DNA of 64,000 nt from Polyangiaceae bacterium (GTDB taxonomy: Bacteria > Myxococcota_A > Polyangia > Polyangiales > Polyangiaceae): NCBI GenBank assembly GCA_013214025.1, contig JABSRN010000042.1:1-64000 (forward strand), written 5' to 3'. The position numbers were made by a program, and so were the translations under genes. Under the pieces are notes generated by a model. The model saw only the letters and a program-made list of their open reading frames with translations. It was not told the origin of the DNA and made no database searches. Each line of letters begins with the position of its first letter. Position 1 is the stretch's first letter. Positions 49,748 through 57,317 of the stretch are shown here, one piece after another.

Positions 49748-50884
49748 TCAATCGCCCGAACAACTGCCACCCCGACACCAATCCAACACTTGCTGCCAGC
49801 TGACACCGGGGGCATCCGGAGGCAGAGGCGAGCCATTCTCGAAAGTGTTCAACTGCCTGGCACCCTCGATACTCACACGACCCGCCTCGAACCAGCGCTC
49901 CAGCTCGGGCGCGAGGGCGAAGGCATCGCGCACCTCCAAGAATCCCCGAAGGTAGATCACCTCGCGGGCCAGGCCACCGCCACGAAAGCAGCGCGTGGCG
50001 ATGCCGACCCCTTCGGTGACAGTCGCGCCGCTCTCTATGAGGTCCCGAACGACAGCGACGAAATCGGCTCCCTTCAATACGGAAGTCGCCGCTTGGTGGC
50101 GCACGGCCAGCTCCCAGCGTCGATCGGCGTCGAGCCAGGAGGCACGTTCCTCAATGAATACCGCTCGACCTTCTTCCCCCTGAGAAGCGCCGGCGGTGCC
50201 CACTCGCAGGATACCCAATGGGGCGCTCTCAGCCGCGATCCGGGGCAGGATATGCGCCGCGATTTCATGTAAAATTAGCCGATCCCGATGGCGATTCGTC
50301 AATTGATGCCCTTCACGAATCATCACCACGCCATCGCCGATGGCCGCGATCGACGGCAGGCCGCGGCGAATCTCCACCCGAAGAGGCAATTTAAACTGGT
50401 GGCAGGCCGCACGAAATCGGCTCAGCAAGCTCCTCGGATCGAGCCCGTCGTCACAATCGATCAGAGGACTCGACGGACTGAATCGGTCTGCGCTCCAAAG
50501 CTTTGCCAATTGGTTGGCTGGGGCGGCGTCCGACGCGGGCAGCCGGTATCGCGATTGCGCCAGTGAGAGAAACGAAGACCCTCCGACGGCAGCTGCGAGC
50601 TCCGCCTCCAACATGAGCTCGCGAACACGGGCACGGTACAGCCCCGCCAAGGTTCCCGGTCCCTCGAGTTCACAAGCGATCGCTCCCAGCGCCTCCCGCA
50701 GCGATTCCCCATCCGGGAGGGCGGCGTAGCTCCAAATCGGAACGCGTGGCTGCCCTCGGCTCCAGTGGGCGACCGTCTGCCGTAGCTCTTCTTGGGCGTT
50801 TTTCGGCTGCGAGCGGTCCAAAAGCGCGATCCGCCGTTCCGCTTCAATAATCGCGCGGTCGAATCGATCCCATTGCGTAGCCAT
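49748..50884 (-). CDS. DUF1704-type zinc peptidase (MATCAP-like)
   Basis: A 378-residue protein. The metal-binding site is LILHEIAAHILPRIAAESAP (HExxH) with a distal Glu in QGEEGRAVFIEERASWLD, close to the QEGLA motif that names the bacterial family, though here it reads GEEGRA. The N-terminal 150 residues are helical. The same fold occurs in eukaryotic tubulin tyrosine carboxypeptidases (MATCAP); the bacterial substrate is unknown. No signal peptide is visible, so it should be cytoplasmic. Confidence is higher for a zinc peptidase than for the exact family. Confidence 0.8.
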   Translation of the reverse strand: MATQWDRFDRAIIEAERRIALLDRSQPKNAQEELRQTVAHWSRGQPRVPIWSYAALPDGESLREALGAIACELEGPGTLAGLYRARVRELMLEAELAAAVGGSSFLSLAQSRYRLPASDAAPANQLAKLWSADRFSPSSPLIDCDDGLDPRSLLSRFRAACHQFKLPLRVEIRRGLPSIAAIGDGVVMIREGHQLTNRHRDRLILHEIAAHILPRIAAESAPLGILRVGTAGASQGEEGRAVFIEERASWLDADRRWELAVRHQAATSVLKGADFVAVVRDLIESGATVTEGVGIATRCFRGGGLAREVIYLRGFLEVRDAFALAPELERWFEAGRVSIEGARQLNTFENGSPLPPDAPGVSWQQVLDWCRGGSCSGD

Positions 50885-50937: not shown

Positions 50938-53292
50938 ATGCCGCAAGGTTCACGTTCATTTTGGCTCGCCACCCTGGTGATCCTCTACGTGTGCTTCGCT
51001 TCGCTGCAGAGTCGCGGAGTCGGAACGGCCCGCTTGCTGTGCGTTGCGCTCACACCCCTGCTGCTATTCGAGCTGTGGCGCAGAACCAGCGACTACGATC
51101 CTAAGAAGCAACGACAAGCCCAGCTGCACTCCCGGGCGATCCGTGCCCTCGCCTGGGGCTCGTTGCTTTGGTTGGCCGCCCGCACCGGCCCCCCCGGTCG
51201 CGCCGCCTTTGATGCCGCAGCCAATCTGGGAGTCGGAGTCGCCTGCGTCGCCGCCTTGATCTGCCTGGCCCGCATCCCGTCGAGCACCGGCATCATGAAG
51301 GCACACCCCCGGACGCAGTCCCTCGACGCTGCGTTTTTCGTGAGTTTCTTGTGGGGCGTGGCCGTGGCGCTGCCGGCAACCCGGGCGCTATTCGGCTCCC
51401 AGCGCTTGCTGATGGATCCGCTCGCCGTAGACTACGCAACGACCGCGGCAGCTCTCGGCACTTTGCTCGTACTGATCGCAACCTCGTGGAGACTGCGTGC
51501 TCAGCGTCGGCTTGAACTCGGCATCGGGGACCGTGCTGCGGCCGCGCTCGCGCTCACGACCAGTTTCCTGCTGATCGCCATACCGGGCGTAATGGCGAAG
51601 GTAGCGCCCCCGGACCGTCTGCTTCCCCTAGCTGCGCTCTGTGCCTCGACGGCCTGCATGTGGTGCGCTCTCACTCCGGAGCCAACTCGGGTCAGTAGCG
51701 CGCTCCGCGGAAGCCTCGCACTCATGATATTGGGCACACCGGTTGTGCTCACAACCGGTGTGCTCGCCCGAAACATGCCCGATCGGGCCGGACCCATTGC
51801 GCTGGCCGGCGGAGTGCTCGCCATCTTGGTCGGACTCGCCGGTCGCGCCGCCGCCAAACCCTTGGGGCCGGAACAATCACGCTGGCTCGACGCCTTTCAG
51901 CGAGCCTCCAACTGCGCGTTGGAGCCAGAACCTGAAGCCGCTATCCGTGCTGCGCTCGAAGCGCTCGGACGTGCCACTACCACTCCGGACAATCGCCCCC
52001 AGCTTTGGCGAAACGACCCTCCCGAGGTGATGAGTGTCGACGTGGCGGGCTACCTTCATACGGAACGAGCTGCCGCTCCGGCGAGCCTCTACGAGTTGGC
52101 AATGGCCGAGCCTGAGCGCACGCTGCGTGTAGACGCCCTGGCTGCTCAACAAGTTCGACGACCCGACGTGCGACCCCTGCTCGACTGGTTCGAAACGCGG
52201 GATGCCTTCTCCGCCACCCTCGTACTGGACGCCGACGGCATATCCGGATTCATCCTACTGCCTCGGGGACTTCGTAAGAGTGCGATGACCCTCGAGGAAG
52301 CCCGAGCTATCCGCTCGCTCGCTGACCGGTTGAGCGCGCTGCTCAGCGTTTCATCGGCACTAGCGGGCGCCCGCGACCGAGTGCTTCAAGCCACCGGTCT
52401 CGCCGAAGAACTCGGCGCAGATCGGGACCGACTGGCCCGTATCGTGGATTCAGGGGCCGACCGAAATCGGGCAGTGGCCGAGCATCTCGCCTCCCCCGTG
52501 CGGCGTTCGGCCTACTCCGCAGCCGCCAGTCTTGTGGTCGCCGAACTGGAGCGCTGCGGACGCCTCAATGCGCCGACGGCCTTGCTCACGCCCCCCGGCG
52601 TCGACGCTACCGGCTGGGCCGCAATCTGTCATCTGGCCAGCCCCCGAGCGGACGGTCCCTTCGTCGTCGCGCAAGGAGCGAGCAGCCGAACCCGGGCGCT
52701 CAGCTATTGGGAAGACGATTCCACATCGCCGATCGTTCTGGCTGATGGCGGTACCCTCTTGGTGTTGGATGCCGCGGCCCTGCCTCAGGAGGTACAGAGC
52801 TTCGTTACGAGAACCATCGCGCGATTGGACGCCGAACGCAGCGACTCCACCGTCCCGGCCGCGCGCGTGCTCATCAGCCTGCGGCGCCCAACCAGCATGC
52901 TGGTAAACGACGGGCAGTTAGATCCCGGCCTCGCCAGCCAAATGCTGGAGAACGAATCCAGTTTGCCTCAGTTGTCTGACCGCCCCGAAGACATGCGAGC
53001 TCTGATCCTAGACGCTATCGCGCAAACGGGCGCCCGACACCGCGGCGAACCGATCGGTATCGAAGCCGAAGCACTCAAGCTGTTGATGGACCACCCGTGG
53101 CCTGGCAACGACTTGGAACTGTCGAGTGTGGTCAGCCGCACGGTGGCATTGAACGATGGCCCGCTCCTACAGGCCCATCAGCTGACGACCATCGGTTTCC
53201 ATCCGATCTCCATAACGCCGCCGATTGTGACGCCGCTACCAGACGCGCCACTTAGACGGCGCCGCCGTGCACGCCGCCCTCCCAGACGCTGA
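50938..53292 (+). CDS. Membrane protein with a relic sigma-54-type AAA+ domain
   Basis: A 784-residue protein. Residues 5-310 hold about eight membrane helices (FWLATLVILYVCFASLQS, IRALAWGSLLWLAA, FFVSFLWGVAVALPA, AALALTTSFLLIAIPGVMA). Residues 320-500 are GAF-like. The C-terminal 200 residues align by eye with the AAA+ core of NtrC-type activators: DGGTLLVLDAAALPQEVQ (Walker B region), SLPQLSDRPEDMRALI (sensor I region) and HPWPGNDLELSSVVSRTVAL (sensor II helix). Walker A and the GAFTGA loop are missing, so ATP hydrolysis and sigma-54 contact are unlikely. It ends in a basic tail (PLRRRRRARRPPRR). It lies before the giant kinase gene on the same strand. Confidence 0.8.
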   Translation: MPQGSRSFWLATLVILYVCFASLQSRGVGTARLLCVALTPLLLFELWRRTSDYDPKKQRQAQLHSRAIRALAWGSLLWLAARTGPPGRAAFDAAANLGVGVACVAALICLARIPSSTGIMKAHPRTQSLDAAFFVSFLWGVAVALPATRALFGSQRLLMDPLAVDYATTAAALGTLLVLIATSWRLRAQRRLELGIGDRAAAALALTTSFLLIAIPGVMAKVAPPDRLLPLAALCASTACMWCALTPEPTRVSSALRGSLALMILGTPVVLTTGVLARNMPDRAGPIALAGGVLAILVGLAGRAAAKPLGPEQSRWLDAFQRASNCALEPEPEAAIRAALEALGRATTTPDNRPQLWRNDPPEVMSVDVAGYLHTERAAAPASLYELAMAEPERTLRVDALAAQQVRRPDVRPLLDWFETRDAFSATLVLDADGISGFILLPRGLRKSAMTLEEARAIRSLADRLSALLSVSSALAGARDRVLQATGLAEELGADRDRLARIVDSGADRNRAVAEHLASPVRRSAYSAAASLVVAELERCGRLNAPTALLTPPGVDATGWAAICHLASPRADGPFVVAQGASSRTRALSYWEDDSTSPIVLADGGTLLVLDAAALPQEVQSFVTRTIARLDAERSDSTVPAARVLISLRRPTSMLVNDGQLDPGLASQMLENESSLPQLSDRPEDMRALILDAIAQTGARHRGEPIGIEAEALKLLMDHPWPGNDLELSSVVSRTVALNDGPLLQAHQLTTIGFHPISITPPIVTPLPDAPLRRRRRARRPPRR

Positions 53293-53438: not shown

Positions 53439-56400
53439 CTGTTCGAACGAGGGGAAATAATCGCTGGTCGCTTCACCATCGAGGCCGAGGTGGGGCGCGG
53501 CGCGGTCGGCATCGTGTACCGTGCCGTCGACTCGGAAACAGGCGAGTTGGTGGCGCTCAAGATCGTGGGAGGCGAAGCCGGTTGCTCGCTCGACGACGAG
53601 AGGCGCTTAGAATCGGAAGGTCGCATCCTCAGTGAGTTGGCGCACCCGGGCATCGTTCGGCTGATCGCCACTGGCCAGTTGGAGTCGTCCGCCCGCCCCT
53701 ACGTCGCCATCGAATGGCTCGACGGCGAAGACTTAGAACGTCACCAGCTGCGGGCGCCGTTGGACGTGCAGACCAGCTTGAGGCTGATTTCTCAGCTTTG
53801 TGAGGCCCTGGCCGCGGCACACCGGTCGGGCATCATCCATCGAGACATCAAGCCCAGCAATATCTTCATTTGCCCCTCCGACGACGAACACGTGCTCAAC
53901 GTCAAACTGATCGATTTTGGAGTAGCGGGAAATCTCCAGCTACCGAACGTCGGAGAGGTAGTCGGTACTCCAGATTACATGTCGCCCGAACAAGCGCAGG
54001 GGCACCAAACCATCGCCCCACAGTCGGATATCTATTCCGTGGGAGCCACCTTGTTCGAATTGCTCACCGGTAGGCCCCCTCATGTGGGCCCGACCCCCAT
54101 CGCTACGCTAGCGCGACTGGTCGCCACCCCCGCCCCTCGCCTGCGAGAGCTGCACCCGCACCTCCCGGCATCGCTGGACGAACTGGTGTTCGCCATGTTG
54201 TCTACCGACGCCAAGGACCGCCCAAGCAACGCCCAGCAAGTGGCCGATACGCTGAACGCCATCGCACGGGCCTCCACGAATCTACCGGCGGCGATCAGTG
54301 ATTCTCCTCCCTCGGGGCGCCTCGGCTCCAGCGCCTCGCGACTCATCACCTCCATCGTCGCGCTCCACCTGGAAAGCAGCTCGGCGAGAGAAAGAGCGCT
54401 TGAGCACCTACGACAACGCGGAGCCGACGCCGTCCCCCTCGGGCCCGATGCCCTCGTCGCTCACTTGGGAGCGCGCCGTGCCGTAGGAACAGAAGCGGTG
54501 GTCGCCCTAGAGCTCGGTCGTCGCCTAACGCGATCCGGGGCAGCTGTGGGCATAGCCACGGGACGCAGCAGAATCAGCTTGAACCGTAGCGATGGGGCGG
54601 TTCGTGCCGTCGGTGAAGTGGTCGACCGAGCCTCGGCCCTCGCTCGAGACATGTCAGAGCCAGGCGTCCTGGCGGATGCCACGACGGCCGAGCTCGGTCG
54701 GGGCCGCTACGAATTTCGAACCCGCGGAGACGGCTCCGCCATCGTCGGCGAGCCAGTACGAGGGGCCCCTTCGCGAACCGCGGGCGGCGCCCCCTTTGTT
54801 GGCCGCGAAAGCGAACTTCAACACGTTCTCAGTGCGGCCGAGCGCTCCGTCCTCAACCGCGAAGGCGTCTTGGTCACCCTCACCGGGTCCCCGGGTATCG
54901 GCAAGAGCCGGCTGATTCGGGAAGCTCTGGCGCGCATCACCGCCGGAGCCGACGCGCCAGTGGTCATCGTGACCCGAAGCGAAGCCTACGGAAGAAGCCA
55001 GGCCCTGGGCGCAGCCGCCGACATCTTGCGCGGCATCTTAGGATTGCCGAAGGGTGTCTCCGTAACGGAGTCGAAGGCGGCGTTGGTCGAGTGCTTGGGC
55101 GCCGAGACCACAATTGATGAAACCACCGCCAGCCACGAATTGATCGCGCGCCTCTTGTCCAACGTGCCGCTGCCGGACGGCATCGACCCCCGCGGTGCTC
55201 GCGACGTGCTCTGGCTGGGCATGACGGATCTTGTACTTCAAGTCTCGAGTGAAGGAGCCCTCGCGATTATCACGGAAGATCTGCAATGGGCCGACGAAGA
55301 GAGCATCGACTGGCTCGACCACTTGGTAGGCCGTTCACAGAACCAGGCGCTGCTCATCGTCGCCGCGATGCGCCCGGGATTCTGGTCGGGCACATCCAGG
55401 CGATTCTCCAGTCGTGAACACGTTCGCCTCGATCTGCGGCCCGTTACCAAACGCGCCATTCGAATGATCGCTCGATCCCTGCTAGGCGATTCCAGCACTC
55501 CTGAAACCCTTGAGCAGATCGTACAGCAAGCCGGTGGGCTGCCGCTTTTTGCTGAAGAACTGTCTCGCCTGAGCGCCGCCGGCGGCGATACCTCCAACGC
55601 GCCAACAATCGAAACGGCCATCCAGGCCAGCCTCGACGGCCTCGACGAAGAATGCCGTGATGCTGTGGGGCGACTCAGCGTTTTCGGTCTGACCTGCTGG
55701 GACGGCGGCCTGGAGGCGTTGGGCATGGTCGAGGCCGAGGGCCTATTGCGGGAGCTCGCCCGACGCGAATTACTGCTGGAACTGCAGGCTTCTCGATTCT
55801 CCGGGTCCAGCGAATGGGTGTTCAAGCATGCCTTGGTTCGTGAGGTGGCCTACAGCAGCCTGGGCAAAAAAGAATCGGTTGAACTGCACGCCCTCGCCGG
55901 CAAGTGGCTTGCCGGCGTAGGCGAGGACTCCGCCATCGTTGCAGGACACTTCGACCTCGGCGACTGCGAAGAGCAGGCAGCGGACCACTGGGCCCAAGCT
56001 GCCCAGCGAGCCCTGGCAACGAACGCACTGAGCGACGCGCTGCGGATGGCCGAGCGAGCCCTCGCGTTCGCGGACGACAAACAAACGGGGTTTCTGCGGG
56101 CCGGTTATCTCGACGAGGCCTGGAGCCGTCTTGACCCCCGAGCCAGCGACCGCGAGAACGCCATCTGGGCCCTCGAAGAGAACGTATACGACGACCTGAG
56201 TTCGGTGCGGGCTCGCGGCGCCCGCGCGCGATACGAAGTGGCTCGAGGCGGAGGGGCGAATCTCAGCGATAGCCTCGCCGACATTCGAAACGAGGCCTCG
56301 AAGCTCGAACTCTATGACGAGGAATCTCGCTGCTCTGCCGCCCTGGCGACCCAACTGGCATTTGCCGGCGATTTTCCGGAAGCCGAAAGCGAAGCGCACC

Positions 56401-57317
56401 GCCTATTGGGTCTAGCCCAGATCCATGGCGTGCGGACCGCAGCCGTAGACGGTTGGCAGACCCTCGCTATCATTCATCAAACCCACGGCGCTCTCAGCTC
56501 AGCGTTGGACGCCCGCAGGAACGCCGTCGGGGCCGCCCACAATGCCGGTCTTAGGGAGCGAGAGAGCATCCTCACCACCAACCTCGGCTTCGCGCTCACG
56601 ACCATCGGCGCCCGTCAGGAGTCACTCCGTTTGCTTGAAGCGGGTTACCTGCTCGCCGATGCCATCGGCAGCCAGGGAGCCCTGCGCCACGCCAGGATGA
56701 TCCTCATGGGCTGGGCCGGTGCCTTCGGTAATGACAAACGAATCGATCAGATGGTCGGTGATTCCCGCTTGGATGCGGACGCCTCAGTGACTGGTACCTG
56801 GACATCACCTGACCGCGAGAACCTCGGTATGCTGTACTACCGGGGCTGCGAACTGTTACGCAGCAGCTCGGATACCGCCAGAAAACGCGCCCTGTCTTTG
56901 TTGCGGACGGCGGCCAACGCCTATCGGAACACCAATAATCACGATGTTTTACCCGTAGCGCTGGGGATGTGGGCGACCGCCGAGCTCCAACACGGAGACA
57001 GCGAGCGCGCTCTTGAGATCGCCCTGGAAGCAGCCGAGTTACTCGAAGCGGACTCCGCCAGTTTGCTCAATGAGTCCCCGGTGTATCTCGCCTTGCATGA
57101 TGCCCTGGTGCACGCCGACCGGGAAGACGAGGCGCGAGAAGCCGTCGCCACAGCCATCCCGCCCTTGCTACGCCGGGTGCACGGCCTCGCGAGCACGCCC
57201 TACGCACGATTGTTTCTCACGGAACTGCAGCCCAACGCGCGGCTAGTTAGCGCCGCAGACGACTACGGTATCTTGCCAGCAAAAATCCGAGACCTCATCG
57301 AGAGCGGCAGCGCGTGA
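53439..57317 (+). CDS. Ser/Thr kinase - degenerate cyclase - AAA ATPase - TPR protein
   Basis: About 1,292 residues. No ATG or GTG is available early enough: the first GTG (53490) would remove the start of the Gly loop. CTG at 53439 gives FERGEIIAGRFTIEAEVGRG, the expected kinase N-terminus, and is 8 bases after GGAGGG. The kinase has VALKIVGG, a catalytic HRDIKPSN, DFGVAG and MSPEQAQ. Residues 310-440 resemble a class III cyclase lacking metal-binding Asp (ITSIVALHLESS). An STAND-like ATPase follows with FVGRESELQHVL and Walker A GSPGIGKSRL, then about 400 residues of TPR-type helices. It resembles the large HsdR-independent signalling kinases of Myxococcota; the target is unknown. Confidence 0.88.
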   Translation: MFERGEIIAGRFTIEAEVGRGAVGIVYRAVDSETGELVALKIVGGEAGCSLDDERRLESEGRILSELAHPGIVRLIATGQLESSARPYVAIEWLDGEDLERHQLRAPLDVQTSLRLISQLCEALAAAHRSGIIHRDIKPSNIFICPSDDEHVLNVKLIDFGVAGNLQLPNVGEVVGTPDYMSPEQAQGHQTIAPQSDIYSVGATLFELLTGRPPHVGPTPIATLARLVATPAPRLRELHPHLPASLDELVFAMLSTDAKDRPSNAQQVADTLNAIARASTNLPAAISDSPPSGRLGSSASRLITSIVALHLESSSARERALEHLRQRGADAVPLGPDALVAHLGARRAVGTEAVVALELGRRLTRSGAAVGIATGRSRISLNRSDGAVRAVGEVVDRASALARDMSEPGVLADATTAELGRGRYEFRTRGDGSAIVGEPVRGAPSRTAGGAPFVGRESELQHVLSAAERSVLNREGVLVTLTGSPGIGKSRLIREALARITAGADAPVVIVTRSEAYGRSQALGAAADILRGILGLPKGVSVTESKAALVECLGAETTIDETTASHELIARLLSNVPLPDGIDPRGARDVLWLGMTDLVLQVSSEGALAIITEDLQWADEESIDWLDHLVGRSQNQALLIVAAMRPGFWSGTSRRFSSREHVRLDLRPVTKRAIRMIARSLLGDSSTPETLEQIVQQAGGLPLFAEELSRLSAAGGDTSNAPTIETAIQASLDGLDEECRDAVGRLSVFGLTCWDGGLEALGMVEAEGLLRELARRELLLELQASRFSGSSEWVFKHALVREVAYSSLGKKESVELHALAGKWLAGVGEDSAIVAGHFDLGDCEEQAADHWAQAAQRALATNALSDALRMAERALAFADDKQTGFLRAGYLDEAWSRLDPRASDRENAIWALEENVYDDLSSVRARGARARYEVARGGGANLSDSLADIRNEASKLELYDEESRCSAALATQLAFAGDFPEAESEAHRLLGLAQIHGVRTAAVDGWQTLAIIHQTHGALSSALDARRNAVGAAHNAGLRERESILTTNLGFALTTIGARQESLRLLEAGYLLADAIGSQGALRHARMILMGWAGAFGNDKRIDQMVGDSRLDADASVTGTWTSPDRENLGMLYYRGCELLRSSSDTARKRALSLLRTAANAYRNTNNHDVLPVALGMWATAELQHGDSERALEIALEAAELLEADSASLLNESPVYLALHDALVHADREDEAREAVATAIPPLLRRVHGLASTPYARLFLTELQPNARLVSAADDYGILPAKIRDLIESGSA

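Follow-up and report, generated by a model that had tools for sequence, protein, structure and literature searches.

A membrane-embedded offshoot of the sigma-54 activator family in Polyangiales, predicted to be ATPase-dead

The enhancer-binding proteins (EBPs) with a GAF sensor, such as NifA, NorR, FhlA, and DhaR, have the domain order GAF-AAA+-HTH. This is also the order in those orthologues of the protein described here that bear an HTH, and the AAA+ fold and the lid motifs are common to both. A genome-wide classification divides activators into types Ia, Ib, Ic, and II, and it lists proteins without a signal domain, without a DNA-binding domain, or without both (PMC3162934). Its text never uses the word "transmembrane". 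Type Ic (FlgR, CtcC, FleT), in which the DNA-binding domain is missing, is listed there among the functional sigma-54 activators (PMC3162934). There are also proteins with an activator-type AAA+ domain that do without the GAFTGA loop, such as VpsR and the NtrC of Rhodobacter capsulatus and Caulobacter, all of them soluble receiver-AAA+-HTH DNA binders. The two NtrC proteins have an L1 deletion, and some GAFTGA-lacking activators are reported to regulate sigma-70 promoters without hydrolyzing ATP, so that an ATP-independent role has a precedent (PMC10274813).

The window that we have analyzed, a stretch of 64,000 nucleotides, encodes a protein that departs from all of these. Compared to NifA, NorR, FhlA, and DhaR, it adds ten membrane helices and is without Walker A, Walker B, and GAFTGA, and its clade is without the HTH. 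It shares the absence of GAFTGA with VpsR and the sigma-70-type NtrC, but it is membrane-embedded, its whole ATP site is gone, and a Pfam search finds neither a receiver domain nor an HTH in it. With type Ic its clade shares the missing DNA-binding domain, but the protein appears to be ATPase-dead and it is membrane-embedded. A search of the open-access literature found no description of a membrane-embedded or Walker-less enhancer-binding protein; since the search covers open-access papers only, this is weak evidence of novelty. Other relatives in design are CadC and ToxR, which are membrane-tethered one-component regulators. In them, a membrane sensor is fused to a cytosolic regulatory output, as it is here (an HTH in the sister families), and by its predicted topology the window protein too carries a membrane part and a cytosolic output end on one chain. 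It differs from CadC and ToxR in having ten helices, a GAF-like and a pseudo-AAA+ domain, and no HTH as a DNA-binding output.

The gene is a single open reading frame with an ATG start. An AlphaFold2 model of the whole chain, built with 44 aligned orthologues, has a mean pLDDT of 91.4 and a pTM of 0.68. The features of the gene are the following, with the evidence for each.

50938..53292, + strand: whole gene, membrane pseudo-AAA+ protein of 784 aa (ORF, model, single-copy orthologues)
50938..51867, + strand: ten-helix membrane domain, residues 1-310, both termini predicted cytoplasmic (model helices, loop charge)
51931..52263, + strand: GAF-like domain, residues 332-442 (model secondary structure, Pfam GAF in 2/44 orthologues, near-invariant columns)
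52291..52506, + strand: long helix, residues 452-523, with heptad periodicity, likely a parallel coiled-coil dimer (model, hydropathy period)
52519..53190, + strand: pseudo-AAA+ domain, residues 528-751, core and lid of sigma-54-activator type (Pfam, NCBIfam, PDB, fold matches)
52588..52611, + strand: TPPGVDAT, residues 551-558, aligned to Walker A GESGTGKE but without its Lys (alignment to activators)
52708..52731, + strand: WEDDSTSP, residues 591-598, W-x5-SP motif at the deleted GAFTGA loop (alignment, conservation)
52750..52773, + strand: GTLLVLDA, residues 605-612, aligned to Walker B GTLLLDEI (alignment to activators)
52978..53187, + strand: AAA+ lid, residues 681-750, keeps R-x-ED and WPGN-x2-EL (Pfam AAA_lid_14 E 1.4e-10)
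53191..53289, + strand: disordered Pro/Arg-rich tail PLRRRRRARRPPRR, residues 752-784, at the place of the Fis-type HTH (model, alignment, downstream-frame scan)

An earlier note on this DNA, made from the letters alone, had read the gene as a membrane-tethered AAA+ relic of a sigma-54 activator with an eight-helix sensor. The number of helices has to be corrected. The model has ten long membrane helices (residues 3-26, 30-51, 59-82, 89-111, 130-152, 161-189, 196-219, 225-245, 249-279, and 281-309), the least hydrophobic being 59-82, with a best 19-residue mean of 0.87. Family-wide, the predicted inner loops carry on average 2.5, 2.3, 3.1, 4.2, 1.2, and 3.7 Lys plus Arg, and the predicted outer loops 0.85-1.19, a positive-inside pattern consistent with ten crossings and with both ends inside. 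The domain that follows has conserved VRRPD(V/L)RP and PRG motifs and near-invariant columns, and calling it GAF-like is a weak family assignment, with Pfam GAF found in two of the 44 orthologues. The 72-residue helix after it has a hydropathy period of 3.48 (shuffle p 0.0005) and thus resembles a coiled coil; together with homology, the heptads suggest that it likely forms a parallel dimer.

The kinship of the next domain to the sigma-54 activators is far above chance. Residues 681-750 match Pfam AAA_lid_14 with the E-value given above, Sigma54_activ_2 matches below threshold, and the NCBIfam models for DhaR (2e-16) and NtrX (2e-11) match far below their assignment cut-offs. The best PDB sequence matches are FlrC (1.5e-11), NifA (1e-10), and NtrC1 (4e-10). 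When residues ~518-759 of the model are compared to known structures, every top Foldseek match is the AAA+ domain of a sigma-54 activator (E 1e-10), and VIA-align gives Z scores of 22.5 for LuxO and FlrC, 22.3 for NtrC1, and 21.5 for VpsR. For LuxO, FlrC, NtrC1, and PspF, Z is 20-22.5 over about 225-266 residues, which makes this an NtrC/PspF-type fold with its lid. Three late motifs of the NtrC AAA+ type that the earlier note had quoted are indeed present and in the order claimed, and the structure prediction that it proposed as a check, which a model other than AAA+ would have contradicted, returned an AAA+ domain in a model with a pLDDT of ~91. Model, fold matches, and sequence thus all back a membrane-tethered AAA+ protein derived from a sigma-54 activator.

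What the domain has lost can be read from an alignment of the window protein to five canonical activators of the same genome, and then to the 44 orthologues. In the window protein, Walker A has gone from GESGTGKE to TPPGVDAT, and Walker B from LLLDEI to LLVLDA, with "LD" where the activators have "DE". The Walker A Lys is present in none of the 44 orthologues, which have A, P, V, L, I, or G instead. The first acid of Walker B (D) is lost in all 44, two of which have Glu there, and the second (E) is replaced, by D in 39. Sensor I keeps its Asn in a single orthologue, and sensor II its Arg in seven. In the FREDLYYRL element, the first Arg survives in 0/44 and the second in 24/44; the window protein has Gln at the second. 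The GAFTGA loop is deleted in all orthologues. The absence of Walker A and GAFTGA, already claimed in the earlier note, therefore extends to the family, and neither a P-loop elsewhere, which would have spoken against that reading, nor a GAFTGA-like string was found anywhere in the window protein or the 44 orthologues.

Every element for ATP hydrolysis and for remodeling sigma-54 is lost, and by sequence the protein is ATPase-dead. Since it has neither the ATPase motifs nor GAFTGA nor a DNA-binding domain, we place it outside the sigma-54 activators, as a membrane-embedded and ATPase-dead side branch of their family. Other positions are retained nearly family-wide: G554, H565, G605, L615, P677, L679, R682, D685, G707, and E727. 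In the window's clade, a W-x5-SP motif replaces the sigma-54 loop, with W591, S597, and P598 conserved in 97-100% of the Polyangiaceae rows, and this conservation suggests a surface under selection.

Full-length orthologues are found in most relatives. The homologue search that the earlier note had proposed, run with a profile limited to the membrane domain and the GAF-like domain, found exactly one copy in 27 of the 31 Polyangiales genomes sampled, and none in 156 genomes taken from elsewhere in the phylum. Only so many candidates are scored in each genome, so that a few copies may have been missed in these counts. The window's own genome has one copy, and holders with a species name include Sorangium cellulosum, Minicystis rosea, and Polyangium fumosum, which puts the window in Polyangiaceae. 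A different profile identifies an orthologue in a 28th Polyangiales genome (G184). The nearest relatives of the window protein have at most 56% identity, which is too distant for dN/dS, and selection was measured in seven close pairs within the family. Overall dN/dS is 0.09-0.38, and 0.18-0.26 for the pseudo-AAA+ domain, values low enough to indicate a protein maintained by purifying selection.

The orthologues also tell how the protein came to be. A C-terminal, Fis-type HTH_8 is present in 11 of the 44, all outside Polyangiaceae and covering most sister families, and in these HTH-bearing orthologues the AAA+ domain is less worn (GExGT remnants, LRERxEDL, some GNxREL). The orthologue at L043 matches NCBIfam activator models at 1e-45, and that at L056 (130-3714), with a total of 1195-1229 aa, has an HTH and is much extended at its N-terminus. 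In a tree of AAA+ domains, the no-HTH Polyangiaceae together with a family that we call f8 form one starred branch (100/100), and the canonical activators join the HTH-bearing group; the tree resolves the no-HTH branch, not the order inside the HTH-bearing group. Because the canonical activators are placed with the HTH-bearing group, the loss of the HTH is the derived state. L057 lacks the HTH separately from the no-HTH branch. The simplest history suggested by the sequences would be a membrane GAF-AAA+-HTH ancestor that lost the ATPase and the sigma-54 contact first, and the HTH later. The fold, and a history that places the loss of ATPase and sigma-54 contact in the common ancestor, are well supported. 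The earlier note had also offered a sensor that borrowed the fold. This comes close, except that no single domain was borrowed, as the HTH-bearing orthologues show descent of the whole GAF-AAA+-HTH chain.

No HTH was found in the window protein or in the frames downstream of it, and the possibility that the HTH had shifted to another frame was rejected, with no remnant after the Polyangiaceae genes. In its place, the Arg/Pro-rich tail is conserved in most members near the window, and also in Sorangium and Polyangium. It is weak, missing, or acidic in several Polyangiaceae that retain the remainder of the protein, so that it cannot be the universal output, and it is less constrained, with a dN/dS near 1 in two of the seven pairs.

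The neighborhoods of 68 loci differ between subclades, and context therefore names no partner. There is no universal neighbor through the 68 loci, and a conserved operon partner was rejected on that basis. At the window, a divergent gene upstream (49748-50884, - strand, 53 bp gap) belongs to the MATCAP/QEGLA family (PF08014, E 2.5e-35), which takes in microtubule-associated tyrosine carboxypeptidases. Downstream, 53439-57317 (+ strand) encodes a protein that joins a Ser/Thr kinase to an AAA_16 ATPase; the GTG at 53490 that is listed as its start cuts the Gly-rich loop, and a CTG at 53439 restores the kinase N-terminus (IIAGRFTIEAEVGRGAVG). A divergent ABC-transporter cassette is found in about 8 of the 68 loci; at L039, L040, L041, L054, and L074-L077, in one Polyangiaceae subclade, an ABC ATPase and two small membrane proteins lie upstream and divergent. 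In 14 loci (L074 and 13 more, many Polyangiaceae including Sorangium), a convergent gene pair lies downstream, one member of which has fvmX7/bpX2 domains of MoxR/FtsH ternary systems. The pair is not at the window, and for that reason a connection to MoxR-vWA ternary systems was dropped. At three f8 loci (L042, L045, L047), a stand-alone response-regulator-like protein is encoded directly downstream, followed in two of the three by a SecA-like protein. A scan of the window for the sigma-54 promoter consensus shows no excess over chance.

What could such a protein do? Our best explanation, to which we would give a little short of an even chance, is that the protein descends from a GAF-AAA+-HTH regulator, is membrane-embedded and ATPase-dead, and has a pseudo-AAA+ dimer that acts as a signal-controlled docking platform. 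The mechanism as a whole is inferred. A membrane or small-molecule signal would be detected by the membrane domain, perhaps together with a ligand that the GAF-like domain binds, and would travel down the parallel coiled-coil dimer and rearrange the two pseudo-AAA+ domains. In the HTH-bearing orthologues, the signal would set the DNA binding of a membrane-tethered dimer, without ATP and without sigma-54, and they may act much as VpsR-type or Rhodobacter-type NtrC do at sigma-70 promoters. In the window's clade, specific DNA binding would no longer be the output; the pseudo-AAA+ pair would dock a partner protein, and in many members the Arg-rich tail may help by binding nucleic acid or acidic lipid through its charge. 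A more specific form of this proposal, a Polyangiales-specific receptor whose pseudo-AAA+ dimer captures sigma-54 activators or another partner from the transcription machinery at the membrane, signal-dependently and without ATP or a DNA-binding domain, so that a catalytically dead transcription-factor domain would have become a docking platform there, is doubtful.

The earlier note had itself offered, as one of two possibilities, a dominant partner that joins hexamers of true activators. On this reading, the pseudo-AAA+ domain would insert into the hexamers and hold them inactive at the membrane. The genome encodes rpoN (sigma-54) and more than 10 other activator AAA+ domains, the AAA+ shape is preserved, and the known hetero-oligomers VnfA1/VnfA3, HrpR/HrpS, and FleQ/FleT (PMC9542535) are a precedent for the idea. 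But the Walker A Lys, the Walker B D, the first Arg of FREDLYYRL, and (in 37/44) the sensor II Arg are lost, and these losses remove most of the nucleotide-bridged interface between subunits; the loop that contacts sigma-54 is deleted as well. A coiled-coil dimer on ten helices fits a ring poorly, the dimer being the better supported assembly, and the HTH-bearing orthologues suggest an independent regulator. We consider hexamer insertion quite unlikely. It is also unlikely that the window's clade is still a membrane-tethered DNA-binding regulator with the tail as a less specific substitute for the HTH: the HTH of the sister families and the conservation of the tail nearest the window speak for it, but the tail is absent or acidic in several Polyangiaceae, is nearly unconstrained in the two pairs mentioned, and a short Arg tail can just as well bind lipid or RNA.

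Signaling in a local pathway through the downstream Ser/Thr kinase-ATPase seems improbable. The kinase domain is clear (Pfam, E 6e-44), and a kinase-family gene is next downstream on the same strand in nine of the 68 loci, mostly close to the window. Most orthologues, however, have other neighbors (the divergent transporter, the convergent ternary-system-like pair, or no shared neighbor), and at the window the two genes lie roughly 150-200 bp apart. Finally, a decaying relic or pseudogene, as the degradation of all catalytic motifs might suggest and as the word "relic" in the earlier note implied, is rejected, and we give it next to no credence: the open reading frames are intact and single-copy across Polyangiales (27/31), dN/dS stays at 0.09-0.38, and new conserved motifs stand at the old catalytic sites.

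For annotation, the family is a warning that genes can receive the wrong label, "sigma-54-dependent Fis family regulators", from a match to the lid alone. Among the regulators of Polyangiales that are still unstudied, the protein is probably one of the most widespread, in an order rich in natural products and multicellular development. If the docking-platform explanation is true, the family would offer a clear bacterial example of a pseudo-AAA+ domain retained for signaling. Within one order, the family traces the loss of ATP use, of sigma-54 contact, and then of DNA binding, in a protein that stays in the membrane and under selection.
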